A stretch of 41,260 bases of DNA from Basidiobolus meristosporus CBS 931.73. Its lineage: Eukaryota; Basidiobolomycota; Basidiobolomycetes; Basidiobolales; Basidiobolaceae. The notes under the pieces are model-generated. The model searched no databases. It was given only the letters and a program-made list of their open reading frames with translations, and had not been told where the DNA came from. The stretch spans positions 1 through 41,260 of the forward strand of contig MCFE01000736.1 in assembly GCA_002104905.1 (NCBI GenBank), in the 5' to 3' direction. Below, in pieces: positions 496 through 40,357 of this stretch; the stretch's first letter is position 1; the number at the start of each line of letters is the position of its first letter. Position numbers and translations under genes: made by a program.

Positions 496-1605
496 CTATC
501 CGGAAATCTGCCACCATTCTTTGCGAACGGGGGTGATTCCAGCGGCGATCAAGGCCTGCTCCTTCTTGACGTCCGACTCGGATTTGAAGCCGTATGGGTT
601 ACCCTTCTGCCAACGCCAAAGGTCTTGGCACATGTCGGTCAGCCCACGCTCCGCCTTCCAATGCAGCTCCTTGTGGGCCAAATCTGGGTCGGCCACCACC
701 ACACCCACATCTCCAGGACGACGATCCACAATCTTGTAGGGAAGCTGGTGGCCCACGATCTCTGACATCGTCTTCACCATGTCCAGCACCGAATAGCCAT
801 TGCCGGTGCCGAGATTGTAAACAACACACCCAGGCTTCTCCTTGAGACGCTCCAGAGCGGCGATATGGCCCAGGGCTAGGTCGACAACATGAATGAAGTC
901 CCGCACTCCCGTCCCGTCGTGCGTCTCGTAGTCCCCTCCGAATACATTCAAGTGAGGCAGACGGCCTACAGCCACTTGCGAGATATATGGCATCAGGTTA
1001 TTGGGGATTCCCTGAGGGTCCTCACCAATCTTACCACTGCGATGGGCGCCAACTGGATTGAAATACCTAAGCAAGGCAGCATTCCATGTGGAATCGGCAT
1101 TGCATGCGTCTGTGATGATTTCCTCGATGAAAAGCTTCGTACGTCCGTAGGCATTTGTACACCCCGTCTTGCACTTCTCGTGGATAGGGATGATCTCAGG
1201 GTCGCCGTATACCGTGGCAGAGGAGGAGAACACAATATCGGTTACGTTGAACTCCTTCATCAAACTCAGAAGCACCAGTGTGGACACGATGTTGTTGTGG
1301 TAATATGTCATGGGGATGATGGAGGATTCCCCGACCGCCTTGAGCCCCGCAAAGTGGATCACCGCCGAGAAGGTATACTTCTCAAATACCTTCTTCAAGG
1401 CGACTCTGTCACAACAATCCACCTTATGGAAGGGGATGTCTTCCCCAGTAAGCTCTTCAACCCGTCGTAACGATTCCGATGAGGAGTTGCATAGATTATC
1501 GACGACCACCACTTTGTATTTGCGTTGCAACATCTCCAGGACAGTATGGCTACCAATGTAGCCTGCGCCACCGGTAACTAGAACATATTCTTGTTTGGAA
1601 CCCAT
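496..1605 (-). CDS. GAL10: UDP-glucose 4-epimerase
   Basis: Interconverts UDP-galactose and UDP-glucose in the Leloir pathway, in the cytosol, with bound NAD+. The 369-residue protein opens with the Rossmann motif [10 protein letters not shown] at residues 11-20. It carries the SDR catalytic serine region SSSATVYG (about 127-134) and the Y153-x3-K157 pair in YGRTK. Length matches stand-alone GalE. There is no fused mutarotase domain of the yeast Gal10 kind, so the symbol is by epimerase homology only. I chose the ATG at 1605 because the Rossmann strand begins ten residues later. The frame stays open to 1686 but those 27 residues are not family-like. Single exon. It diverges from two galactokinase genes, recalling the GAL10-GAL1 arrangement of yeasts. 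A telomere-like repeat lies about 180 nt upstream. Confidence 0.95.
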
Positions 1606-1784
1606 TGGCTTAGATTTCAATAGGATCGAAGGGTATCTTGTATGGGGACTGGGATTGATTCTTGCCAAGAACCAAGCCCTCATCAACGGTTATTTATATT
1701 CCAGAAGGCATCTTGCGTCATGTATCATTACCCTATTCTCGAGGAAGGGATGATTGGAGCAGCTGGATCTCTAACCCCAGCCCC

Positions 1785-3104: not shown

Positions 3105-4707
3105 ATGAACCAGAACTTAGTCCCAATTGCCAATTCCGTGGCTGACATCTATGCTCAAAATAAAGTCGATCAGGAAGTGTAAGCGCTTGCATGTATGATC
3201 GATTGGCAGCAGAAGGACTAATTCCCCTCTTATTTGGATCTTTAGCCAACGCTATCGCGCCTTGATTACTCGCTTTAAAAGTGTATATGGCTTCGAGCCG
3301 GAATTCGTCGCTCGTTCACCGGGTAGAGTCAATCTGATTGGTGAGCATATAGACTATGCGGGATTTCCTGTTCTCCCCATGGCGGTGGACCGCGACTGCC
3401 TGGTTGCCGTTGCCACCACCACAGCTGACCACAGAATCCGGATTGCCAATACGAATGCTAAATACCCTAGTCGGGAGTTTGAGTACGAAGGCGAGAACAT
3501 CATCAGCATTGATGACACCATCCATGAATGGACCAACTACTTCAAAGCGGGCTACAAGGGGATGTTGGAGAATCTCAAGTTAGGGACAGCCCCCGTCGGG
3601 ATGTTCTGCCTAATGGACGGCTCGGTGCCTTCTGGGGCCGGAATGTCGAGTTCCTCAGCCTTTGTATGCGCCTCCGCTATTGCCACCATGGTAGCCAACA
3701 AGAAGGAACTGGCAAAGACTGATATTGTCCAAATTGCGATTGCTTCCGAGCGCTACGTAGGTGTTAATGGCGGTGGCATGGACCAAACTGCATCCGTCAT
3801 GTCCAATGCCGACTCGGCGACCTTTATCGAATTCCAGCCAAAGTTCAGAACCGTTCCCGTTCAACTCCCCAATACTCAGCCGGCAATCTCGTTTGTGGTT
3901 GCCAATACCCTGGTTACTGCTGATAAGGTAGTATCAGGGCCCGTTTGCTACAATCTCCGAGTAGTGGAGACTAGGGTGGGGGCTAAGCTATTGTCAAAGA
4001 AGTTGAATCTTGAAGAGCTAAATCCGCAGACGTACAAGGAGGTTATGGATGCATACTTTATAAACCACGAGGAACCATCATACACAACAGAGACTGAACA
4101 GTGGATCTATCGACTCACCAAAATGCTTGAGCTGGTCAATGAGCATATCACCAAGCACAAAGGATACTCTAGGCACGAGATGGCCGCGGAACTTGGGCTT
4201 ACAGAAGAAGAGATTCACCAGACATTCATGTCCAAGTTCCCTGTACGCACTGAGCTATTTCAACTATACTCTCGGGCCGTTCATGTCTACTCGGAATCCC
4301 TAAGAGTTGTCCGATTCAGAGATATTTGCGAGAACTACAATACCACGCGGACCGACAGCGAGTGTATATTGCAACAGTTGGGTGATCTAATGAATGAGAG
4401 CCAGTACTCGTGCCGGGACAATTTCGATTGCTCCTGTCCGGAGCTGGAAGAGCTCACCACCACATGTCGTAAGGCCGGTGCTTTAGGATCGCGTCTAACT
4501 GGTGCAGGATGGGGAGGCTGCACCGTTTCCTTGGTCCCCGAGGACCGGGTGGAGGCGTTTATCGAAACCGTCAAGAACGAATATTTCCGCAAGCGATTCC
4601 CTCATTTCACGCCCGACCAGCTTGAGAACGTGATCTTTTCGTCGCGGCCCTCTAGCGGGGCATACATCTTCAAGAAGCATGCTGCGGCCAGCCCTATTGG
4701 TGGATAA
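3105..4707 (+). CDS. GAL1: Galactokinase, tandem copy 1 (GHMP kinase, GAL1/GALK2 family)
   Basis: Phosphorylates galactose (or GalNAc, as in the GALK2 branch) at C1 with ATP. Exons 3105-3178 and 3246-4707 give 511 residues. The phase-2 intron starts GTAAGC and ends TTTAG. The ATG at 3105 gives an N-terminus (MNQNLVPIANSVADIYAQ) paralogous to that of copy 2. Seen in the protein: sugar-binding signature GRVNLIGEHIDY (51-62), GHMP ATP motif GSVPSGAGMSSSSA (150-163) and the C-terminal LTGAGWGGC (about 442-450). The SSSSA dipeptide region lost in yeast Gal3 is intact, so catalysis is expected. The IDYAGFPVLPMAV stretch also resembles animal GALK2, so GalNAc kinase activity is an alternative. An AATAAA lies at 4808. 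Confidence 0.93.
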
Positions 4708-5534: not shown

Positions 5535-7131
5535 ATGCAGCAAGAAAACTTCGTGCCCACCACTAATTCGGTGATGGACATCTACGCCGAATCCAAGATT
5601 CCCGGTCAAATGTAAGCCCCAGCATTGTTTTCTGCCGATCCAAATATTGACCACCAGCGCAACCACTAGAAAGCGCTATCGTGATTTATTCCAGGAATTC
5701 AAAACAATCTATGGGTTTGACCCAGAATTTGTCGCCCGGTCCCCAGGTCGCGTCAACATCATCGGTGAGCATATTGACTATGCGGGATTCCCCGTGCTGC
5801 CGATGGCCGTAGACCGAGATTGTTTGATTGCCGTAGCTACCACAAAGTTGGATAGCAAAGTTCGCCTGGCAAATGTAAACCCAAAGTTCACCCGGGCAGA
5901 ATTCTCATTCGTCGACAAGGAAAGGATTGTCGACATTGACGATACCGTCCATGAATGGACCAACTACTTCAAAGCGGGCTACAAGGGCATGCTTGAATCC
6001 TTAAAGCTCGATGCGCCTGTGGGCATGTTCTGTCTCATGGATGGCTCTGTCCCCTCAGGGGCTGGAATGTCAAGCTCCTCAGCATTGGTCTGCACCTCCT
6101 CAATTGCCACCATGATAGCCAACAAAAAGTGCCTGAGCAAGAACGATATTGTTCAGATCGCCATTGCATCCGAACGATATGTCGGAACCAATGGAGGTGG
6201 CATGGACCAAACCGCTTCGATCATGTCGCATGCGGATGCAGCAACATTCATCGAATTCCACCCCAAGTTCATTACCACCCCGGTCCATTTCCCTGCAACC
6301 CTCCCGGCTATATCCTTTGTGGTGGCCAACACAATGGTTGTGGCGGACAAAGTGGTGTCTGCACCTGTATGCTACAATCTACGAGTAGTGGAAACCAAGG
6401 TCGCGGCTATGATTCTGGCCAACAAGCTAGGCCTACTTAGCGAGAGACCCCAAACACTCAAAGAGGTCATGGATTTGTTTTTTGCAGGATCCGAAGAGCC
6501 CAAATATGCCACTGTCACAGAGCGTTGGATCTTTAGGCTTGGCCGAATGTTGGAGCTAGTGGAGCAGTTCATCACCCAGCACGATGGCTATTCTCTTGCA
6601 GAAATGGCAGAGGCAGCTGGGCTGTCTGAGGATGAGATCCATGCTAGATTTATGTCCAAGTATCCAGTTAGGGCTGATGTATTCCACATCTATGCCCGTG
6701 CCATTCATGTGTATTCCGAAGCTCTACGGGTGGTTCAATTTCGGGATGTCTGTGAGAGAAATCAAGATACTGTTGAGGACAGCCAGGTCGTGTTGCATCA
6801 GCTGGGAAGATTGATGAATGAGAGTCAGGTCTCTTGTAGAGATAACTACCACTGCTCATGCAAGGAGCTTGATGATCTTACATTGATATGCCGCAAGGCT
6901 GGAGCATATGGCTCAAGATTGACTGGTGCCGGCTGGGGTGGATGCACAGTGTCGATGGTGCCTGAGGATCAAGAGCAGGAATTCATCCAAAGAGTGAAGG
7001 ATGAATACTTCCGACCCAGATTCCCTGATTATACTGAGGAGCAGCTGAGCAATGTCATATTTTCATCTCGCCCGTCTTCTGGGGCGTTCATCTATAGGAA
7101 GCGTACTGCCATTAATCCATATGGAGGTTAA
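5535..7131 (+). CDS. Galactokinase, tandem copy 2 (GHMP kinase, GAL1/GALK2 family)
   Basis: Second galactokinase, 512 residues from exons 5535-5611 and 5670-7131. The intron is phase 2 at the same protein position as in copy 1, and both second exons are exactly 1462 nt, so this is a tandem gene duplication. It keeps GRVNIIGEHIDY, GSVPSGAGMSSSSA and LTGAGWGGC, so both paralogues look catalytically competent. I chose the acceptor at CACTAG|AAAG because it restores the QxKRYRDLF alignment with QEVQRYRALI of copy 1; an upstream CCACCAG is possible but fits less well. The copies have diverged across the whole length, so the duplication is not recent. Functional division (kinase versus sensor, as Gal1/Gal3) is possible but not shown. 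Confidence 0.93.
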
Positions 7132-7490: not shown

Positions 7491-9165
7491 ATGACATTAT
7501 ACCTTGCCTTTGCGCTCATTATCTCGCTGGTAAAATCAGAAAATATACTTCCTCTCAGTGTAGCAAATTTCGATCAGACAGTCACCACTTCTCCATTAGC
7601 CTTGGTTCGGTTTCATGCATCTTGGTCTAAGAGCAGCAGACAGTCAGGTAAATCCAAAATGGGCGGTAAAAGTAATGAAGTTCATCAACTAACTCCAGCT
7701 TTCCGGAACTAGAATTGGCATTTCACTCGGTAGCATCGGATTTGAGTCCTCATATCACCTTTGCTACAGTGGATTGTTCCGAATCTAATAGTTTATGTAA
7801 TCAGCTTGATGTATGGGATCTACCGACATTAAGGATTTTCAGGTAGTTAAAGTGCTTATTTTTGATATGGCACGTAACATCGTCGTGACTGGATCTCGCT
7901 TTAGAAATGGAACCAGATACAACTACAGCGGGCCTTTTGAGAGAGATGGGATGATGGAATACCTGCAAAAGTATGCTTTGGAGGTCAGATTCGTGTATTC
8001 TTGGGACGGATATTAACTTGTCCTCAGGCAGAAACTTCCAACCCTCACTCAGGTGAGCGCCATCAATTTCCAAGAATTCATCAATCATGACTTGATTGTG
8101 CTTGTGGGTTTTCTTGGAGAGAATGAGGGACATGAAGCGTTACGGGATATCGCACTCCAATTCAGAGATCAATTCCAGACTGGTTTATGCACAGACAGAA
8201 CCCTAATGAAAGAGCTTCAGGTTACCCCGCCCACCCTAATCCTGTATCACCATGATATGGGCGACTCATATCGCTACACTGAAGCCTTGGAGGTTCCTAG
8301 GATTGCTCAGTTCATCAAAACCAACTCGATCCCGATTATATCCGAAATAACCCCCACGACATACGAGCTGATGCGAGAAGCAGACCTGCCGGTCGCTTTC
8401 ATATTTTACTCGGGCTCTGGGGAAAGGGAACGCCTGAGGAAGGAACTGGTCGGAGTAGCGAGGTTGTTTAGAGGCTCCATCAGCTTTGGTTTAATCAATG
8501 GTGCTGAATATCAGGTGTTTGCTGGATTGTTGAACATTCAGCCAAGATTTCCTGCTTTGGCCATCCAAACACCAGCCAATAATGCAAAGTATGTATTGCC
8601 TCAAGACATACCAGTTGGTGCTGAATCAGTACGTGATTTTGCATACCAGTTTTTGCAAGGGAAGGCCCAACCAAGCCTGCTTTCGGAAGACATCCCTGAG
8701 ACAAATGATGGTCTGGTTAAGATTGTTGTGGGAAAAGAATTCAATCGAATTGTGATGGATCAAGAGAAAGATGTGGTGGTGGAGTTTTATGAGTCCAGCT
8801 GTGGTGCAGGCTGCAACGAGATTGATCCATTGTATGAAGCAGTGGCACGGAAATTCTCCCATCAGAAGGGGCTGCTATTCGCTAAAATGGATATGAAGTA
8901 TAATGAGTTACCTATTGACAAGAATCTGGAGATTATCGGCTTCCCTTCGGTGAAGCTGTTCAAGGCCGGTCAGCCCAAAGAAGCGATAGACTTTGAAGGC
9001 GCACAAGAGTTCAATGCATTCGTCGACTTCCTGAGACAGCACTCTACCTATCCTACCGATGTTGAGAAGATATCTGACTATGAGGAGTATCAGCTGATTA
9101 TGCAGATGAAGCAAGAGCATCAAAAATCAGTGCGCCAATTGAGACCCTCTCATGATGAGCTTTAA
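7491..9165 (+). CDS. ER protein disulfide isomerase homologue lacking CGHC active sites
   Basis: A PDI-family protein of about 499 residues with signal peptide MTLYLAFALIISLVKS and C-terminal HDEL, so an ER-lumen resident. Proposed exons are 7491-7642, 7699-7842, 7905-7970 and 8028-9165. The layout matches a-b-b'-a'. In the a domain the WCGHCK position reads W45-SKSS-R, with no cysteine. In the a' domain it reads ESSCGAGCNE (C379 and C383), a CxxxC instead of CxxC. The flanks are ordinary PDI: VVVEFYES, AKMDMKYNEL, GFPSVKLF. It may act as a chaperone or substrate binder rather than an oxidoreductase. The first intron is uncertain. The best donor (GTAAAT at 7648) breaks the frame, while a weaker GTCAGG at 7643 keeps it. 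A frameshifted pseudogene is the alternative, but the other introns and HDEL are intact. Confidence 0.8.
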
Positions 9166-10154: not shown

Positions 10155-13100
10155 ATGAGACTGGCGGTAATCTCATGCTTGGCTTTGTCCGGATCTATAA
10201 TCGGCGTCACTCATGCCCAGGATGTCAGTTACCGCCCTGTTCTTGACAACTGCATAACACCACTAGCACGAAACGCTGTTCCCAAGGCAGTTTTTCCTGA
10301 CAACGTCGGGGCAATGCCTCCCACCCTGACTTCAGCCCCGCACACCCTGAGCTGCCCAAACTCACTCGCCAACCTGAATCTTTTTCCGCCGCCGAGATGC
10401 CTCTCACTTGAAGGTACGACGTACCCTCCCAATGACAATCAAGACATATATGCCCACCGCGGACAGAAGTCATCTCGACTGATTACTCACATGGTATGGC
10501 CACACGTTATACTTCACTCGTGAAGCATCGATTTGGTTGACGAATTCGCCTTTCCTGTAGATCACATTTTTTGGACATTTCCTGTCCTTGGATTTAGGCG
10601 ACTTGCTCGTCAACAACACTGACACAGCAAATGTCGACCTACCTGCTGGAGATAATCTTTTCCCTGAGAGCCTCACCACGAACGGAACGCTGCTATTCAA
10701 AAGAGCGCAGTACCAGATCGGCCCAAACGGCTATCGACAGGCCCTTAACAATGCCACCTTTACCTTGGATGGCTCCGCGATCTACGGCTCTATCACTGCG
10801 GTAAACCAAGCATTGCGGTGGACGAACATGCACGGGAAACTGCGAATGACCAGTTTGAACAACACTATAGCCTTGCCGATCAGAAGTGACGATGGCTATC
10901 TACTAGGGGCTGCGCCATCGCGTAGCATGAATATTTTCACCATGGCCATTCAGATCATATGGATGCGGGAGCACAATCGCATATGTGACGAGCTCTACGC
11001 AATCTACAAGGACACTTGGACGGACGAAAAGTACTATCAAGAGGCACGAAGGCGTGTGGTTGCCCTGATCCAAAAAATCACCTACAACGAGTACTTGGGG
11101 ACAGTCCTTGGTCGCTGGATATCGCAGGACTACGACATCTACAAGAATAGTACGCCCAACACCGACAATTTCTTCCTCGGGACAACCTTCCGCTACGGCC
11201 ACTCAGAGCTGAGGTATGTTTTTACACTAATCTTGGTCCAGATATCCAGACACTTATCTCGATGCACTGCGACCCATGCCACATTAGCGATACATATCGT
11301 CTGGTGGATACCCAAGGTGTTTATCTTAAAGACTTTTCGCTGCGAGAGATCTCCAATTTGACCTTGATCGAGAGCATTCCTCTGGAACTCCTAATCCGGT
11401 CTGCAGCAGCCCAAGTCCAGGAAGAAGTAGACATCTACTTCCCTTCTATGTCCATGAATTACACCAATACCAGGGGAGTCTCCTACGACATCCCGGCCTT
11501 TGATGTTCAACGCGGACGTGACCTAGGCATTCCCCTCTACAACGATGCCCGGCAAGCATTCAACCTCCCAAGAAAAACTAGCTTCGAGGACATCAGCAAT
11601 CTACCGGATGTGCAAAATCGACTGAGAAAAATGTATGGCACGGTTGACCGGGTCGAGTCTTATATGGGTGGTCTGGCGGAGAACAAAATCACGGGCTCCA
11701 GCTTTGGCGAGCTGTTTTTCAAGAGCATGGAGGATCAATTCGTCCGGATACGCAATACAGACCCGTACTGGTACGAGAACAGCCCGGATCTTGTCGATTA
11801 CGTTAAAAGCACGGCTTGGAAAGACGTCATTGCCCGAAACCTTCCGCCCACTGCCTTGATGCCTAATTCTATTTGGACCTTACAACAGGAGAGCTCAGCA
11901 AGCCTGAATGATCTTTCTGCCACCTATCGCAACGAATACGTGGCTAACGATATGTACAAACTCAACTGGGAAGTCCAAGGAGATGTGATCAAGTTTGTCC
12001 TGCAGCTCAAAAGCAACCAGGGTTGGTGCGGCGTAGGGTTCAACCAAGTGAGCGCCTCAATGGGGATGGTAGCTACTCCAATTTCTTGATATATCTTAGC
12101 CTCATTCTAACATCATGTCAGATCAAAGCAGACTTCGTAGTGGCCAACTTTTCGCAGGGGTCATTTAATATCGCACCCTACACCTTTGAAGGTCTTAGTG
12201 CCAGCGTACCCAGGTCGACTGATCTCTATAAGATCACTGATTCAAGCATGATGAACTCCAAAGGTGTAACAATCATCCGGTTTTCTCGCCCTCTGGATGT
12301 GGGGACATCCAATAAGATCATCAATACCAAAATGCTACGTAGGTGGACCCCTCGAAGTGCATCGTCCCCGAGCAGCCGTACTAACCCGGCCTTCTAGTGA
12401 TATGGGCATACTCTACCACAGAGACATCCCCCTCGCACCATAGAGAGAACAAAGGGAAGAAAGAGATGAATTTCTTCACCGGCGAGAATTCGAAAGCCAT
12501 CGGATCCACCCATAAATTCCACGGCATAGGGATGATACTGACCTGGACGTAAGTCAGCATGGCGCAACCTTTGGCCCATACCACTCACTAACACCACAAT
12601 CGCACGGCTTATCTAGTGTTCTCTATCCATGTAAGGCCAAAACCCGTTGGTCGGTCTGAATACGCATACTGACTGTCACTCTCCTGTAGTGTCGATTTTT
12701 GTAGTGCGATTCCGAAAGCACACCAATAATTACATGACCTTGCACCGGAATATGCAAATCATTGGGGGGATCTCGGTTTCGACCTTGGGGGCTGCTGCCA
12801 TCGCCACATTCACCGGCATGATGTCGAAATCGCACGGGACATTAGGACTGGTCATATATGCGTGCGTCTTCTTTCAGCTTGGTTTGGGTATGATATCACT
12901 GTGGGGAAGAGAAAACACCCTCTCGGTGAAACAGGGGATTACGAAGTATACTAAATACTTTCACGGGATATTCGGTAGTGTTCTACTGTTGATGTCATGG
13001 TACCGTATCGTGCCCCTACTACTCACACTCAGTGAACAGTCGCTCATCTTTGCTATTTGAAGGACGAACATATATCTTGGAATCCGCGCCTATGCTCCCG

Positions 13101-15317
13101 CCCAAGAAAGACTACTTACAATTCTCTATTTTGTCTGGTTGGGGATCATATTACTCTCCTTCTGTGTCGGGCAATACTGGTACAAGTACGGCACCAAGCT
13201 GCAAACCAACTCCAGGACAAGCAATCGAAGGTCAATTGCGAACTTCCTGGATGAGAAGAAAGTAGAGAGCCTTCCCGCCTTCACTATCGACGATGTCAAT
13301 GAGAGAGTTGCTCAAGGAGTAAGTGACTTGGCGCTGAGCGCTTATCTACCTTTGGCTCGCAACTTACAATTTGATTACTCCAGGCGTGCCTAGTTATGAT
13401 GGAGGGTTATGTGTTCGACATTCGCAAGTGGATTCAGCATCACCCTGGTAAGTGCCCACAATTCCCGTTTCGTCCAACTCGTTCGCTGACCACGGATGCA
13501 CGCGCAGGAGGAGTCAAGATTTTAGAAGCGGTTGTAGGGACCGACATCGGTATTGACTTTTACGGTCACCACAAACTGGCTGAGGAAGAAATCAGCAAAC
13601 ATGACCAGTCCGCTGGGAGGAAATCCGTTTTCAACAGTGTCGTCGGGGACTACACATCAGAAAAGCGCAAGAAGAAAGGGTTCGGAAACCTCGTAACCCA
13701 GCTGTTCCCGACGAATATTTCAGTGGTGAAGCACGACCATTCAAGATTTGCCGCAGAGAAGCTAGCAACCATGCTTTTTGGGCGCTTGTTAGACGAGAAA
13801 GAGCCCGTAGGAAGAACAACCACTTTGGCCAAAAGAAGAGGAAAAGTGCTGGGATTACCCTCGACTCCGAAGCCATCTCAAAACCTTCAAAATCACCTCT
13901 ATCGCCGTTATCTTGTCAATAGGGTTACCACGGTGACCCTCCCCGCAGCCAAAGCCACAGTCAAGCGGTTCGATTTGTCCATTTTACACCCCGTCAAGAG
14001 CATGGACCCATTTCAGCCTGGTGAATATATTGAAATCCAAGCCAAGATCGAGAACCAAATAGTGGTTCGAGCCATTACACCAATCCAAGGCACCTTGTCA
14101 GATTCATTCTATTTCTACGGAAAGCTTTACTCGGATGGTTTGATGTCCAAGTTCCTGGTAAGTTGATAATGAATTCTACGGTGGATTAAATTCCGACTCA
14201 TCATGAAATACGTGTAGGATGAACTTCAGCCGGGGACACAGCTGAAAGTTCGCGGCCCCCTATACAACGTAACCACAGATACTATCCTGAATCCAATCAC
14301 CCGCGATACCGAGCCCAATAAGACGGCATCAACTGAATCTGTCAGCAGCCTCACAGAACGCTATGAGATCCCTAGGCCTCTGCGAAACAAAAAGAGGCCA
14401 GAATTTGGATGCTGGGATAATTTGTACATGATTGCAGGAGGATCCGGCATTACACCCATGTTGCAACTGGTACTTCAATTGAAACCCTTTCCGTTTTCCG
14501 GCTCCTTATTAAACTCTGGCTTTAGATCTACTACCATTTGGAAAACTGGAAAAAAGAGAACCCCAGGAATAGCCGTATGCATCTGCTGTATTGCAGCTCG
14601 ACTATACTCGATATAATTGACGGATACACCCTTGATCACGTGGTCGAAAACTCCAAGGGAAGATTGACGATTACACATGTGCTGTCGTCCCCATGCGAAA
14701 ACTGGACGGGCTTAACGGGGCATATAGACCATCACATCTTGCGAAAATGGCTATGCACCTACCCTGGCAATAATCCGAACCCTCGCCAATTAGATGCAAT
14801 GCTAGAGATCAGGGAATCATCTACCCCCAGAACTCCAGAGACCCCCAACCTGGAGACAGAGGATACTCAGAGGCTGCTTCCATCCCAACCAGCCTCTATT
14901 TTAGAAAAGCGGGAGTCTAGACCCGCGAATATAGTGACGACTGAGCAGATCAAGGCTTCTGAACGCGTATCCAAATTCTTAGACGAGGCTATTCCAGAAT
15001 TCGTTCCTAAAGGAATTCTAGGCAACTCCTCAAGGAACAAACTGAAGCGCTCAACCCAGATCTCACCTACTGGGCAACTGGTTGGGGATGTGGATCATCA
15101 TATCTCCATGCCGCTGTATCCTAGCCAACAATTGGCATCTGGATCGCTGTCGACACTAAACCTCCCACTGGAACACGACTCCCCATGGTGGTATTCCGAT
15201 GAACCACTTCCCCATACTAAGATAGTTATATGTGGGCCATTTGGGATGGCGCATTCGTCTCGCAAATCACTGCGTCGACTGGGCTTTCAGCCTCAGAACA
15301 TTAGTGTGCTCCGCTGA
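10155..15317 (+). CDS. Peroxidase-DOMON-cytochrome b561-cytochrome b5-reductase fusion (DUOX-like architecture)
   Basis: Twelve exons: 10155-10493, 10561-11213, 11288-12047, 12122-12338, 12398-12548, 12617-12630, 12690-12999, 13063-13318, 13384-13447, 13508-14157, 14218-14469, 14526-15317. They total 4458 nt, or 1485 residues. Signal peptide about 1-21. DUOX-type heme peroxidase about 25-540: MREHNR with R249, RYGHSEL with proximal H327, VQRGRDLG; the distal DHD is replaced by SLD (122-124). DOMON about 545-675. Cytochrome b561 about 690-840 with four His: 698, 730, 760, 803. Cytochrome b5 about 886-950: HHPGG at 919-923 and H942/H943. Reductase about 1000-1485: RAITP, GLMSKFL, GGSGITP at 1212-1218, CGPFGM at 1458-1463. 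The predicted path runs from cytosolic NAD(P)H through FAD, b5 and transmembrane b561 to extracellular DOMON and peroxidase. It would work like DUOX with b561 in place of NOX (inference). Start chosen for its signal peptide. Confidence 0.9.
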
Positions 15318-35655: not shown

Positions 35656-36157
35656 TTAGGGATAGGGGGGAGGGAGTCACCAATAGGTGAAATCTTTATT
35701 TCAGTTGAAACAAAGAAGCCAGCACTACTGTTGTAGCTTTGATACAAGAGTGTGTAGCTGAGGGGAATTTGTAGGTAAGTTTACAAGAAGTAATGATGGT
35801 TCTTCAGTGCTCAAGACACTGTTCAGTGGGAAGGGGGGTAACAAGAGTGGCAAGAATGATTTGTGAACAACATTAATGAGGGGAATATGATAAGGATTGA
35901 TATTTGTCATAAAGGGAGTGTGCTGCTTCACATATTGCTGCCAAAGGTCTGTCAAGTACTTCAGGTAGGCCAGCTTGGGTATTTCTGACTGCAGAATATA
36001 GTGAGCAAACTTCTTGACTTCAGGATCTCCAAGTATAGTTCTCCAGCAGGAGCCAGGTGTAGTGTGGTGTGTTCTCTTCCAGGTCTTGATTAGTGGGTTG
36101 TTGCAGTGGTGAAGTCTGCAATATAATTTTGATCTAAGATAGAGTAGTCTGATCTTA
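35656..36157 (-). mobile_element. LINE copy A, 5'-truncated
   Basis: 3' part of a non-LTR retrotransposon. It encodes the C-terminal reverse-transcriptase ORF end, whose stop is at 35725 after VSKLQQ, and a short 3' UTR with AATAAA and a terminal hairpin. It ends at the plus-strand junction CTTAGGGATAGGGGGG. Its 5' side stops at 36157 where copy B begins, within the sequence that in other copies reads CTTATAGGGCATAAACCC. The open frame reads through from copy B's 3' UTR into copy A. Confidence 0.9.
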
Positions 36158-38852
36158 GGGTTAGGGGGGAGACAGTCACCAACAGGTGAAATCTTTATTT
36201 CAGTAGAAACAATGAAGCCAGCGCTACTGTTGTAGCTTTGATATAAGAGTGTGTAGCTGAGGGGAATTTGTAGGTAAGTTAATAAGAAGTGATGATAGTT
36301 CATCAGTGCTCAAGACACTGTTCAGTGGGAAGGGGGGTAGCAAGAGAGGTAAGAATGACTTGTGAACAGCATTAATGAGGGGAATGTGATAAGGATTGAT
36401 ATTCATCATAAAGGGAGTGTGCTGCTGCAGATATTGCTGCCAAAGGTCTGTCAAGTACTTCAGGTAGGCCAGCTTGGGTTTTTCTGACTGCATGTTGTGC
36501 ATCAACATTTAAAACTTAGCCAGTTTTTCTCTGTTTGAAAATCTAGTACCCTAACTGATTTTCCCTAACCCAAACATAACAAATCCCAGTTACAGTTTAT
36601 TTTATCCCACCTCAGAATCTATTTTTAGCTATCACACCTGATCTATTTTCAAATGATCATTACATTATCAACCTATCTGCCAAGCCTTCCCAGGTGATTA
36701 GTCATCTGAGATCTATCCAACCACTGTGCAGTTGCCAAGGCATCAGTTGATTGATGATGTAATTTTCATTTATCTTATGCACCTATGAACATCCAGTCCC
36801 TTGGCGCTTACTAATTCAACTTGATCAGAAAAGTATAAATAAAGTTTACTAAACCTTTTGGTTTAGGGTGTGTCTCAACAAAATTAAGATTCTGTCTCAG
36901 CAAAAATAAGAATCCAACAATTCCGTTCTAGTTTCCATCCAAGCCTAGTATATCTAGCACTCCAAAGAACACCAAGCCTAGCCTGCCTAGCCAACAAATA
37001 TCATTGCCTTTATAGCCAACCCAGCTATATCCAAGACCAACATTAGATCAGAATCTTTCTGCTAATATTTCCGCCACTCTTTGACAATTCTAAGATTCTG
37101 CACTTAATTGTCCCTTTGGTTCAGTTAAACCATTCAAGAGTTTTATTACACTTTCTCTTGGACTCAACACTGCAGAATAAATTGAGCAAACTTCTTGACT
37201 TCAGGATTTCCAAGTATAGTTCTCCAGCAAGAGCCAGGTGTAGTGTGGTATGTTCTCTTCCAGGCCTTAATCAGTGGGTTGTTGCAGTGGTGAAGTTTGA
37301 GATATAATCTGGTTCTAAGGTAGAGAAGTCTGATCTTATAGGGCATAAACCCAAAAGCACCAAGAATAGCATGTCTGTAGGGGCATTCAGGCAAATGAGG
37401 CACCATGAGGTAATGCACCATACTGCAAACTTGTCAAGCTTAGTGCAGTCTCTAGAAGTAAGAGAGAGAAGTTGTAAGCCAAATTGCAGGACAGGGAAGA
37501 CAAACTGCTTGAGTAGAAGGAGGCAGCTGGGAGCTGAAGTTGTAGGAGGAGTAACAGCCAGTAGCTTGTGGAGTGCCTGTCTTGCAAGGATAATTCTCTT
37601 CTTCAGGTGTGCCCCAGAGTCTAGTCCAGTAGGAAGGAAAGGAAAGCCAAGATATGTAGCAGAAACCTGAGCAGGTAGAGTGGAGTTCTCCAAGTTGATG
37701 GGAGAGCCCAAAGGTACTGTCTTTGCAATGGAAAGCTGGAGATTATTCTTCTGCAGATACTAATGGATGGTCTGGGAGTCTTGTTGCATATTGGAGGAGG
37801 ATATTCTGATGTCATCAGCAAAGAGAGTAACCAGGCAGTCAGCTGAGAGTCTTGGAAATTATTCAGGAAGATGGTAAACAGTATAGGACCAAGCACAGAG
37901 CCTTGAACCACCCCATTTGAAACTGAGAACACAGCTGATTGCTCACTTGGGTGAAGAATTCTTGCTTGTGGATCCAGAAACAGAGACCTGACAAGGAGGG
38001 TGAGAGAGGTACTGGAGAAGCATTGCAACTTGGACCAAAGCAGATTTCTGTCAACTGAATCAAAGGCCTTAGTAATATCAAACAGAACAGAGGGATACTT
38101 GCACTGGAGAGAGTGATATTGGCTAAGTATGACTGCATATTCCAAGGAGAGGCCAGGAACAAAGCCAAACTGTGCAGGGTGAAACTTGAGGGAGTCAGAG
38201 TAGAGCTCCTGAGCAAGCAGAAGCTCAAACACCTTTCTGCAGGTGGGCAGCAGAGATATTGGCCTGTAGGAGCTAGGATCCAGGTGCTTTCCTTTATCCT
38301 TGTACAGTGGCAGAACATTTGCAAAGGACCATTCATCAGGAGTAGAAAGCTTGGCTGAGCATTGCTGAAACAGTGGAAGCAGAAGTGCAAACATGGCCTT
38401 AGTATTAGTCTTCAGAAGCTCATAGGAGATTGTGTCCACACCTGGAGCAGTTGGGTTGGGAAGCCTCTTGAGCACATTATGGATTCTCCCTTGATCAAGT
38501 GCAAGTGGGATGGGCAGAGTCTTGAAGTCAGGATGAAAACCAGGAGTTGAGTACTGCTTTGTATAGAAGAAGATGCCAGCCAGCTGTTCTGTTGAGGGTA
38601 ACTTCCTGGAAGAGGGCCTCATTGCCCTGTAGAGTCTTGATACTGTTCTTGTTATAGAGTTGGAAGATTGCAGAGGCAAAGAACTTATAATATGATCCCA
38701 GAGCTGAGTATGCAGAGTGTGGTGAATTGCCTTGGAGTGGTGTATTGCTTTCAGGAGGAGTTTCTCTGTTTTTGGGTTAGGGAAACTCAGGTAGCTTTGT
38801 TGCAGGGCTGAAACAATGGATTCCCATTATCTTGAAGTAACAGCAGTAGTAT
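36158..38852 (-). mobile_element. LINE copy B with reverse transcriptase, interrupted by a solo LTR
   Basis: Longest LINE copy, split by the LTR at 36493-37169. From 38852 downward it encodes RT fingers and palm: GVDTISYELLK, FANVLPLYKDKG, YRPISLLPTCRKVFE, FDITKAFDSVDR, GVVQGSVLGPILFTIF. The catalytic box LFADDIRIS is present but shifted out of frame, and a stop follows in the next segment, so the copy is dead. The thumb-like region continues to the C-terminal VSKLQQ-type end (stop at 36224). The style is that of the CR1/Jockey/Tad group; no endonuclease or 5' ORF is present. The 3' junction reads TCTTAGGGTTAGGGGGG, with two telomere-like units. Confidence 0.9.
36493..37169 (+). mobile_element. 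Solo LTR (677 bp) with 5-bp target duplication
   Basis: Starts TGTTG and ends CAACA, the canonical TG...CA LTR ends. It is flanked by CTGCA at 36488-36492 and 37170-37174. Removing the LTR plus one CTGCA restores the LINE reading frame across TTTCTGACTGCAGAATA. A TATAAATA promoter-like element lies near 36834. No internal retrotransposon genes follow, so it is a solo LTR left by recombination. A truncated relative lies at 35347-35655. Confidence 0.93.
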
Positions 38853-38969
38853 TTAGGGGGGGGGATGATAATCACCACAGGGTGAAATCTTTATTTAAAT
38901 AATAAATAAAGAAGCCAAACTTCAATATGAATATTTGAGATGCAGTAAGCCTAAAAGTTAAGCTTGGAC
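38853..38969 (-). mobile_element. SINE-like unit S1
   Basis: A 117-bp unit whose 3' end is the plus-strand junction ATTTAGGGGGGGGGG. It carries the same terminal hairpin (TCACC-4 nt-GGTGA), the AATCTTTATTT block and AAAGAAGCCA as the LINE 3' UTR. The rest is unrelated to the LINE and non-coding. This is consistent with a non-autonomous element that borrows LINE machinery, or with the 3' end of a different LINE. Confidence 0.7.
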
Positions 38970-39288
38970 TTAGGGGGGAGGAAAGTCACCAAGTGGTGAA
39001 ATCTTTATTTACTTATGACAAGTATCTAAAGAAGCCAAGTTAATCTGAAGTTTTTCCTAGAAAGCTAGGTCTGAGAGATATCTTCCTGGTAAGCCAGGTC
39101 TGAGAGTTGAGAAGCTGAGTGGTACTATATTTCCTAGTTAGCTAGGTCTGAGAGTGGTTTCCTGGAAAGCCAGGCCTGAGAAGTGAGAATCTGAATATAT
39201 CTGAGCTAAGTTATCATGGTTTGCGGTAGCTGAATTGTGGCCGGAATGGCCAGTAGACTGGGGGAACTGAGAGGAATTTCTGGGCGAT
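38970..39288 (-). mobile_element. SINE-like unit S2 with four hairpin repeats
   Basis: 319 bp starting at TTAGGGGGGAGGAAAGTCACC and sharing the LINE-type tail. The body has four copies of a roughly 25-bp motif, each a 5-bp stem with a 4-nt loop followed by TCTGAGAG (or CCTGAGAA). I see no tRNA or 5S A/B-box head. It abuts LINE copy D at 39289. Confidence 0.7.
39056..39174. repeat. Four hairpin repeats with compensatory changes
   Basis: Stems at 39056-39069 (CCTAG/CTAGG), 39085-39098 (CCTGG/CCAGG), 39133-39146 (CCTAG/CTAGG) and 39161-39174 (CCTGG/CCAGG). Their loops are AAAG, TAAG, TTAG and AAAG. The A-T to G-C change occurs on both arms together, so pairing is kept. Confidence 0.85.
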
Positions 39289-40247
39289 TTAGGGGGGAGA
39301 CAGTCACCAACAGGTGAAATCTTTATTTCAGTTGAAACAAAGAAGCCAGCGCTACTGTTGTAGCTTTGATACAAGAGTGTGTAGCTGAGGGGAATTTGTA
39401 GGTAAGTTAATAAGAAGTGATGATAGTTCTTCAGTGCTCAAGACACTGTTCAGTGGGAAGGGGGGTAGCAAGAGAGGTAAGAATGACTTGTGAACAACAT
39501 TAATGAGGGGAATGTGATAAGGATTGATATTCATCATAAAGGGAGTGTGCTGCTGCAGATATTGCTGCCAAAGGTGTGTCAAGTACTTCAGGTAGGCCAG
39601 CTTGGGTTTTTCTGACTGCAGAATATAGTGAGCAAACTTCTTGACTTCAGGATCTCCAAGTATAGTTCTCCAGCAGGAGCCAGGTGTTGTGTGGTGTGTT
39701 CTCTTCCAGGCCTTAATCAGTGGGTTGTTGCAGTTGTGAAGTCTGAGGTATAATCTGGTTCTAAGGTAGAGAAGTCTGATCCTATAGGGCATAAACCCAA
39801 AAGCACCAAGAATAGCATGTCTGTAGGGGCATTCAGGCAAATGAGGCACCAAGGAGGTAATGCACCATACTGCAAACTTGTCAAGCTTAGTGCAGTCTCT
39901 AGAAGTAAGAGAGAGAAGTGGTAAGCCAAATTCCAGGACAGGGAAGACAAACTGCTTGAGTAGAAGGAGGCAGCTGGGAGCTGAAGTTGTAGGAGGAGTA
40001 ACAGCCAGTAGCTTGTGGAGTGCCTGTCTTGCCAGGATAATTCTCTTCTTCAGGTGTGCTCCAGAGTCTAGTCCAGTAGGAAGGAAAGGAAAGCCAAGAT
40101 ATGTAGCAGAAACCTGAGCAGGTAGAGTGGAGTTCTCCAAGTTGATGGGAGAGCCCAAAGGTACTGTCTTTGCAATGGAAAGCTGGAGATTATTCTTCTG
40201 CAGATACTGGTGGATGGTCTGGGAGTCTTGTTGCACATTGGAGGAGG
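39289..40247 (-). mobile_element. LINE copy D, 5'-truncated
   Basis: Nearly identical to copy E and open without a stop from 40247 to the stop at 39352. It covers the region after the RT catalytic box (SSNVQQDSQTIHQYLQ onward) to VSKLQQ, plus the 3' UTR. The 3' junction is GCGATTTAGGGGGG. The 5' side ends at 40247, directly against unit S3, just short of where LFADD would be encoded. Confidence 0.9.
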
Positions 40248-40357
40248 TTAGGGGGAGGAAAGTCACCAAGTGGTGAAATCTTTATTTACTTATGACAAGT
40301 ATCTAAAGAAGCCAAGTTAATCTGAAGTAATTCCTAGAAAGCTAGGTCTGAGAGATA
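40248..40357 (-). mobile_element. SINE-like unit S3, truncated copy of S2
   Basis: 110 bp, nearly identical to the first about 110 bp of S2, up to the first hairpin repeat (CCTAGAAAGCTAGG). It is cut after CTGAGAGATA by copy E. The shared sequence with S2 shows S2/S3 are members of a repeated family rather than unique spacers. Confidence 0.85.

Follow-up and report, generated by a model that had tools for sequence, protein, structure and literature searches.

What would a peroxidase-like domain do at the outer end of a chain of redox modules that would start from a cytosolic reductase? The question is raised by one gene of the fungus Basidiobolus meristosporus CBS 931.73, located at 10155..15317 (+) on contig MCFE01000736.1 (assembly GCA_002104905.1), whose positions 1 to 41,260 form the window, that is, the whole stretch of DNA analysed (41,260 nucleotides). 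The gene encodes a single chain in which a module of the An_peroxidase family is followed by a DOMON domain, a cytochrome b561 core, a cytochrome b5 module, and modules that bind flavin adenine dinucleotide (FAD) and nicotinamide adenine dinucleotide (NAD). The architecture is real and is conserved over deep fungal divergence. On balance, its product is probably an oxidoreductase of NADH or NADPH (NAD(P)H) that exports electrons to a heme held in the peroxidase fold, a heme unsuited by now to ordinary H2O2 chemistry. Three features read from the sequence underlie this proposal: the order of the modules, the conservation of their ligand sites, and the loss of the distal side of the head.

One gene and one chain

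The original prediction had described twelve exons joining in frame to 1485 residues, with the signatures of five redox modules in one order. The exon number and the in-frame joining hold, and the product is corrected to 1492 amino acids (aa). Introns are GT-AG in 11/11 cases and measure 53-74 nt. The gene model is as follows:

10155..15317, forward strand: whole gene, 12 exons, 1492 aa; introns all GT-AG, phases in agreement, one terminal stop
10155-10493, 10561-11213, 11288-12068, 12122-12338, 12398-12548, 12617-12630, forward strand: exons 1-6, in-frame splice model
12690-12999, 13063-13318, 13384-13447, 13508-14157, 14218-14469, 14526-15317, forward strand: exons 7-12, in-frame splice model

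The smallest exon (12617-12630) has only 14 nt, and the spliced residues WTVLYPLS match WGVLFPCS of a relative (P0001) in the alignment. A Pfam scan at E ≤ 1e-3, the check that the original prediction had proposed, matched An_peroxidase, DOMON, Cytochrom_B561 (below its family cut-off), Cyt-b5, FAD_binding_6, and NAD_binding_1, six families in the order claimed, and returned no further family in the 1492-aa protein. Each module border lies within one exon (peroxidase/DOMON in exon 3, DOMON/b561 in exon 5, b561/b5 in exon 8, b5/FAD in exon 10, and FAD/NAD in exon 11), so that the fusion is independent of the splice model; these open frames bear out the claim of one chain and rule out a division into two genes. 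An independently predicted protein of Basidiobolus ranarum (P0124, partial, 739 aa) is identical at 535/742 aligned positions (72%), over an alignment that spans from within exon 7 into exon 12, i.e., from b561 to the NAD module. For B. meristosporus CBS 931.73 itself, RNA-seq reads are available (PMC7466969).

Of 6296 candidates in a search with the whole protein, seven reached E ≤ 1e-10; they belong to Rhizophagus diaphanus, R. clarus (four proteins), Actinomortierella ambigua, and Physocladia obscura (partial). A further search, based on the alignment of these proteins, scored 7989 proteins, of which 1462 passed E ≤ 1e-20, and the best 120 were listed; with the matches of the whole-protein search, they amount to 123 aligned rows, including the window protein, on which the family counts are based. 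In 17/120 listed rows, PF18962 is present and the reductase domains are missing; one of these rows bears the name of a Saprospiraceae bacterium, and the other 16 are presumably bacterial. PF03098, PF03351, PF00173, PF00970, and PF00175 occur together in 69/103 of the remaining listed rows (hand count), and the other 34/103 are without one or more of the five, often being partial or short. The domain set for which the original prediction had proposed a survey of other fungi is thus found there, in 69/120 listed relatives.

The rows with all five domains come from Rhizophagus, Funneliformis, Gigaspora, Cetraspora, Dentiscutata, Acaulospora, Entrophospora, Diversispora, Paraglomus, Mortierella, Paraphysoderma, Lobulomyces, Blyttiomyces, Geranomyces, Thoreauomyces, Powellomyces, Boothiomyces, Sorochytrium, and others, which we take to represent Glomeromycotina, Mortierella, and chytrid-grade fungi. 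Two Jimgerdemannia rows have peroxidase and DOMON only, and Spizellomyces, Chytriomyces, Cladochytrium, and Hyaloraphidium are each without one of the five domains, among the matches listed. Eight clusters carry the name of R. clarus, which indicates that the family is multi-copy there. No Dikarya name appears among the best 120 of the 1462 matches. When the C-terminal half was used to look for relatives free of the peroxidase, five proteins were obtained, three of them with a peroxidase module; the other two, P0124 (partial) and P0125 (548 aa), have no peroxidase domain listed and may be incomplete. This search says little about peroxidase-free kin, since its recall was low, as judged from its failure to return the source relatives of its own alignment.

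The peroxidase head

The N-terminal part of the protein comprises the following features:

10155..10217, forward strand: N-terminal hydrophobic stretch, probable signal peptide, aa 1-21 (hydropathy, segment aa 3-21, mean 1.79)
10449..11855, forward strand: An_peroxidase module, aa 99-520, exons 1-3 (PF03098, E 2.4e-83, 280.9 bits against a cut-off of 25)
10573..10593, forward strand: former distal motif GQxxDHD, now G-H-F-L-S-L-D, aa 118-124 (alignments)
11200..11202, forward strand: proximal heme-ligand His327 (RYGHSE), His in 84/84 rows with both positions aligned

The motifs of the superfamily are GQxxDHD, which holds the distal catalytic His, and RxxE (PMC4420034). In the window protein, the Gln, the heme-ester Asp, and the distal His of the first motif are replaced, and the calcium-site Asp124 is kept; with the distal motif gone, a working classical peroxidase was rejected for this protein.

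The same pattern extends to the family. Peroxidase sites were counted in a second, more careful alignment, from which 7/123 rows with fewer than 330 aa of the module were dropped (116 left). Across the rows without PF18962 that have both positions aligned, the proximal His is kept in 84/84 and the distal His in 8/84, the latter figure not being a census, as closeness to eight sequences, all without a distal His, decided the ranking of the rows. In the other 76/84 rows, different residues occupy the position (F 35, M 17, L 8, Y 7, T 4, S 2, I 1, A 1, N 1). Kept along with the proximal His are its Asn partner (95/97 rows with a letter) and the cation-site residues Asp183 (88/88) and Asp124 (82/88). 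All 17 PF18962 rows (17/17) retain Gln, Asp-His-Asp, the proximal His, and the distal Arg and Glu.

The eight rows with a distal His belong to Powellomyces, Boothiomyces (three), Cladochytrium, Sorochytrium (two), and P0085; the distal pair is Ala-His in seven of them and Asp-His in P0085, with Arg present in 8/8 and Glu in 4/8. The RxxE Glu is found in the aligned column in 0/80 rows without a distal His (the window protein and 79 others). In the window protein and many other rows, an Arg lies one alignment column away, owing to a one-residue indel, and the loss of the distal Arg is therefore uncertain.

A tree of 52/116 rows, hand-picked for spread and built with the motif columns excluded, requires at least two changes at the distal site: one on the branch to a Lobulomyces-Geranomyces clade (support 100/99), and another on the branch to 29 rows that include the window protein (100/97). 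With the PF18962 rows as outgroup, both changes read as losses. Support is weak for where P0085 falls (88/64) and for grouping the seven Ala-His rows together (85/84).

Two observations on distal sites stand apart. In nine rows (P0007, P0076, P0079, P0087, P0102, and others, from chytrids), the distal His is replaced and the heme-ester Asp position holds a His, a possible shifted distal ligand. P0085 (EukProt g480.t1, 1753 aa) combines three DOMON stretches and the Asp-His distal site with b5, FAD, and NAD modules; its b5, without extra residues, appears complete, with a His 23 residues beyond HPGG, and its N-terminus is joined to an Spt4 zinc finger, perhaps through a gene-model artefact. P0085 might represent an outgroup whose peroxidase still works.

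The proposed electron wire

Downstream of the head, the features of the presumed electron path are:

11949..12411, forward strand: DOMON module, aa 552-668, exons 3-5 (PF03351, E 5.2e-15)
12066..12068, forward strand: DOMON heme-ligand candidate Met591, Met in 102/102 rows with a letter
12439..12441, forward strand: DOMON heme-ligand candidate His678, just beyond the Pfam match, His in 96/97 rows with a letter
12520..13168, forward strand: b561 core with five transmembrane (TM) segments and His705, 737, 767, and 810 (Pfam, hydropathy, and conserved His)
13289..13791, forward strand: cytochrome b5 module, aa 898-1023, with about 55 extra residues preceding an HxHSxxA motif (Pfam, alignment)
13441..13443, forward strand: b5 heme ligand His927 (HPGG), His in 95/95 rows with a letter
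13567..13572, forward strand: His949/His950 (FYGHH), which compete for the role of second b5 ligand and lie past HPGG at the classic spacing; position 950 is also His in B. ranarum
13738..13740, forward strand: candidate second b5 heme ligand His1006 (KHDHSRFA), His in 96/98 rows with a letter
13957..14268, forward strand: FAD-binding module, aa 1079-1162 (PF00970, E 4.2e-10; among solved structures, a cytochrome b5 reductase matches best)
14428..14753, forward strand: NAD-binding module, aa 1216-1305 (GGSGITPM; PF00175, E 3.4e-14)
14754..15203, forward strand: low-similarity insertion within the NAD module, ahead of its ICGPFGM end (alignment)
15231..15317, forward strand: end of the NAD module (CGPFGM...) and stop (gene model, structure match)

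Counts for these sites come from a faster alignment of the 106 rows without PF18962, with rows that have a letter at the position as denominators. The Cytochrom_B561 match (aa 705-829, E 9.8e-4) reaches 19.8 bits against a 23-bit cut-off and is thus sub-threshold; it is backed by five hydrophobic segments (aa 706-724, 742-760, 769-787, 811-829, and 839-857, the fourth at a lowered threshold only) and by four His conserved among relatives in 91/91, 87/88, 91/91, and 77/77 rows. Lys and Arg number 4 and 4 in the loops predicted to lie inside, and 1 and 1 in those predicted outside. A hydrophobic N-terminus is present in 48/74 relatives of at least 1350 aa, the remainder including rows apparently incomplete at their start.

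This middle part resembles the CYBDOM proteins, with a DOMON domain bearing Met591 and His678 and a b561 core of five TM segments and two His pairs. The plant DOMON-b561 proteins HYP1 and CRR have Met/His in DOMON, b561 His pairs 1-3 and 2-4, and five TM helices (PMC10784544, PMC10784552), and the C-terminus of CRR faces the cytosol (PMC10784552). By that comparison, the b5 and reductase modules of the window protein would be cytosolic.

The Cyt-b5 match covers aa 898-953 (E 3.6e-9) and profile positions 3-59 of 74. At the place of His949/950, the relatives P0001-P0005 and P0007 have no His; about 79 residues past the HPGG His lies an HxHSxFA...L motif that resembles the end of a b5, and a Powellomyces protein (P0118) has its HxHS within about 30 residues of HPGG. 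When the extra residues were removed from the window protein, the match grew from 3-59 to 3-73 of 74 with a gain of 2.6 bits, in weak support of His1006; for P0001, the same removal gained 2.0 bits, with coverage 1-70 both ways. The natural b5 piece of P0118 matches profile positions 1-59, stopping just after its HS. Because its position is kept across relatives, His1006 is favoured as the candidate second b5 ligand.

FAD_binding_6 and NAD_binding_1 both score above their Pfam cut-offs. The FAD Arg is kept in 94/94 rows with a letter. The motif RxYT reads RAIT at aa 1116-1119, a form common to the B. ranarum protein; its third position is Tyr in 91/94 rows and Ile in 1/94. The nucleotide-binding motif GGxGxTPM is present as GGSGITPM, and the final weak piece of the match to the b5-reductase structure falls past the 14754..15203 insertion. 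On NADH versus NADPH, the NCBIfam matches of three relatives all fall far under the cut-off. Taken together, ten ligand and FAD sites are complete in 56/84 rows of at least 1250 aa; of the 28 incomplete rows, 27 miss sites by alignment gaps alone, perhaps through gene-model faults, and one, P0085, has Asp at the HxHS column. The heme-ligand sites of the wire are kept nearly everywhere they can be aligned, with the second b5 ligand uncertain.

Function, known counterparts, and meaning

We infer a plasma-membrane flavo-cytochrome, with its hemes occupied and its reductase in the cytosol, that would oxidise cytosolic NADH or NADPH and pass the electrons outward. They would travel from NAD(P)H to FAD and the b5 heme, then to the inner and outer b561 hemes and the DOMON heme, and finally to the His-ligated heme of the extracellular peroxidase fold. 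That terminal heme, its H2O2-activating distal side dismantled, would most likely hand electrons to an outside acceptor. O2 is the first guess, by analogy with DUOX, which would make the protein a convergent analogue releasing superoxide or H2O2; ferric iron would come second, by analogy with CYBDOM proteins, and peroxide is plausible for members with a distal His. Two patterns favour this scheme: in the rows compared, the proximal His is invariant where a dead scaffold would let it vary, and the distal His is mostly lost where an ordinary peroxidase would keep it. From both, electrons most likely reach the head heme and then an outside acceptor. Such a combination agrees with a heme that remains bound and connected to the wire, and that would not split H2O2 in the usual way.

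Several points weigh against this proposal. Heme binding by the head is deduced from the kept His and Asn, and a hydrophobic distal pocket alone is no pointer to O2. Distal-His members may be commoner among the 1342 proteins beyond the listed rows. Two candidates compete for the second b5 ligand, b561 scores under its Pfam cut-off, and the count of five TM segments comes from hydropathy, with the fourth sub-threshold. In another description of CYBDOMs, the TM helices are even in number and the C-terminus lies outside (PMC10691727); this topology, if valid here, would put the reductase outside.

Rather unlikely, and still the strongest competitor, is an extracellular ferric or cupric reductase. 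Metal chelates would then take the electrons from DOMON or the outer b561 heme, as happens in plant and animal CYBDOM proteins, with the peroxidase head as a module for docking or for binding the chelate. In its middle, the protein is built like a CYBDOM, and both HYP1 and CRR belong to the metalloreductases (PMC10784544, PMC10784552). This reading nevertheless leaves the kept proximal His (84/84) and Asn (95/97) unexplained, and the genome's four ferric-reductase-domain matches, on four other contigs, could serve that role.

We regard as unlikely an NAD(P)H-fed peroxidase, whose outside heme would reduce H2O2 or organic peroxides with cytosolic electrons as a defence against external peroxide. 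Such chemistry would suit the distal-His rows (8/88), all with Arg and 4/8 with Glu, which may be under-sampled, and P0085, which keeps the Asp-His pair together with three DOMON stretches and the b5, FAD, and NAD modules; 80/88 rows, the window protein included, have neither a distal His nor the RxxE Glu in the aligned column. Lower still stands the view that the head is a heme-free structural or maturation domain, as in human DUOX1, and that the wire ends at DOMON. The human DUOX1 domain is without heme and has its cation sites kept (PMC7794343), and Asp183 (88/88) and Asp124 (82/88) are likewise conserved here, yet a proximal His kept in 84/84 rows would be unexpected after heme loss. Extremely improbable, finally, is an artefact of gene model or assembly fusing adjacent genes, which was dropped because every module border lies in one open exon and the same domains occur together in other genomes (69/120 listed relatives).

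The relation to DUOX needs to be drawn with care. The protein resembles DUOX in having an N-terminal peroxidase-superfamily head, predicted from the hydrophobic N-terminus to lie outside, together with a membrane part built as a heme wire and an FAD/NAD(P)H module presumed to be cytosolic; the head is degenerate, with cation-site residues kept. It differs in its wire, which is DOMON-b561-b5 where DUOX has a NOX/ferric-reductase core, in a flavin module that is b5-reductase-like, and in the DOMON that stands in the place of the EF-hands. No NOX or ferric-reductase core and no EF-hand family was found in the Pfam scan at E ≤ 1e-3, so the label 'DUOX-type' given by the original prediction fails as class membership, which was rejected. 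The anatomy of an outward electron wire on one chain, also proposed there, is upheld, whereas the term 'electron-transfer peroxidase' is doubtful for the window protein because the Gln, ester Asp, distal His, and RxxE Glu are absent.

DUOX heads themselves are not uniform. The human DUOX1 peroxidase domain is without the proximal heme-ligand His (PMC7794343, PMC4420034) and shows no heme density, with two cation sites kept (PMC7794343), whereas the window family keeps the proximal His and mostly loses the distal one. The title of a reference cited in PMC3591440 concerns the binding of heme by the peroxidase domain of C. elegans DUOX1, which suggests that the heads differ among themselves. The role of the DUOX peroxidase domain 'remains obscure' (PMC4420034), and in the study of Kawahara et al., none of the four fungi included was found to have Duox (PMC1940245).

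Other known systems share single parts of the chain. With CYBDOM proteins (HYP1, CRR, and the animal SDR2/FRRS1 and CG8399), the protein has in common the DOMON Met/His pair and a b561 core with four His. HYP1 and CRR resemble it further in a signal peptide, probable here, in their five TM helices, and in the pairing of His 1 with 3 and 2 with 4; those two use free cytosolic ascorbate, whereas here b5 and FAD/NAD modules are fused on one side and a peroxidase on the other. The likeness to the PF03098 superfamily (peroxinectin A, secreted bacterial-type peroxidases) lies in the fold, the proximal His-Asn, the calcium-site Asp, and many invariant Arg, Glu, and Tyr residues; in contrast with its catalytic members, the window protein has lost the Gln, ester Asp, distal His, and RxxE Glu and is fused to a reductase. 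Among peroxidase-cyclooxygenase features, PF03098 and the proximal His-Asn are present, and GQxxDHD and RxxE are absent. Membership among the Ppo/linoleate diol synthases was rejected, as no P450 family appeared in the Pfam scan; animal-like heme peroxidases of Mucoromycota have been mentioned, described as peroxidase-P450 (PMC10629195), and the peroxidases treated in PMC8778642 bear no relation to this family. NADH-cytochrome b5 reductases and nitrate reductase offer the HPGG b5 followed by FAD_binding_6 and NAD_binding_1, and the nearest solved structures; the window protein differs in the extra residues before HxHS, the long NAD-module insertion, and the joined b561.

A survey of ferric-reductase domains regards DOMON and peroxidase-like modules as parts added to that core for electron transfer (PMC3591440). 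The DOMON ferric reductases of Naegleria and oomycetes likewise carry an extracellular DOMON on a membrane heme core; that core is of the ferric-reductase superfamily, and no peroxidase or b5 is described in the excerpts of PMC3591440. Sponge DspNOX has extra TM helices, matching b561 in two species, on a calcium-regulated NOX; it differs in its NOX core and other domains, with no mention of DOMON, b5, or a peroxidase head in the text available (PMC9524095). The complete order from peroxidase through DOMON, b561, and b5 to the reductase was not found described in the literature searched, which mostly did not extend to subscription papers, in line with the original prediction, which knew of no functional description. 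The modules are thus known ones in an order not found described, whose working would be DUOX-like by convergence although the protein fails the tests of DUOX membership.

The rest of the genome was searched in the 89.0 Mb assembly (1311 contigs), of which the window is one entire contig. Other An_peroxidase matches were found only in one 616-aa frame (C1056), which from its motifs we take to be Ppo-like. A DOMON search found one match elsewhere, presumably a dopamine-beta-hydroxylase relative by its motifs; the search missed the window's own exon-split DOMON, and paralogs may thus be missed too. Within the window, a thioredoxin-domain gene (Thioredoxin_6 and Thioredoxin, PDI-like) at 8020-9162 (+) is the next scanned frame upstream on the same strand. 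Two tandem galactokinase genes at 3199-4704 (+) and 5578-7128 (+), with a UDP-glucose 4-epimerase-like gene nearby at 499-1689 (-), perhaps form a small galactose-use cluster. At 35725-40281 (-), frames contain repeated near-identical stretches, and we assume them to be parts of a non-long-terminal-repeat retrotransposon.

As to origin, we tentatively see in this family a fungal-built counterpart of DUOX. A peroxidase could have been fused to the DOMON-b561-b5-reductase wire early in or before fungal history, its distal side later lost at least twice with the heme ligand kept, and the head would now stand last, on the outside, in a chain of five hemes that exports electrons and is driven by NAD(P)H. 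If this is true, the freeing of a peroxidase from its catalytic residues by fusion to a reductase would be a repeated rule, common to DUOX. Members at differing stages of catalytic loss (Asp-His, Ala-His, no His) provide a natural series for testing the role of the degenerate DUOX head. Among the matches listed, relatives carry database names no more specific than 'heme peroxidase', 'hypothetical protein', or similar, and the family is a candidate for electron export driven by NAD(P)H both in arbuscular mycorrhizal fungi and in chytrids. In the former, where the family is multi-copy, such an exporter, if the proposal holds, could set the state of reactive oxygen species or the redox state of metals at the root interface.

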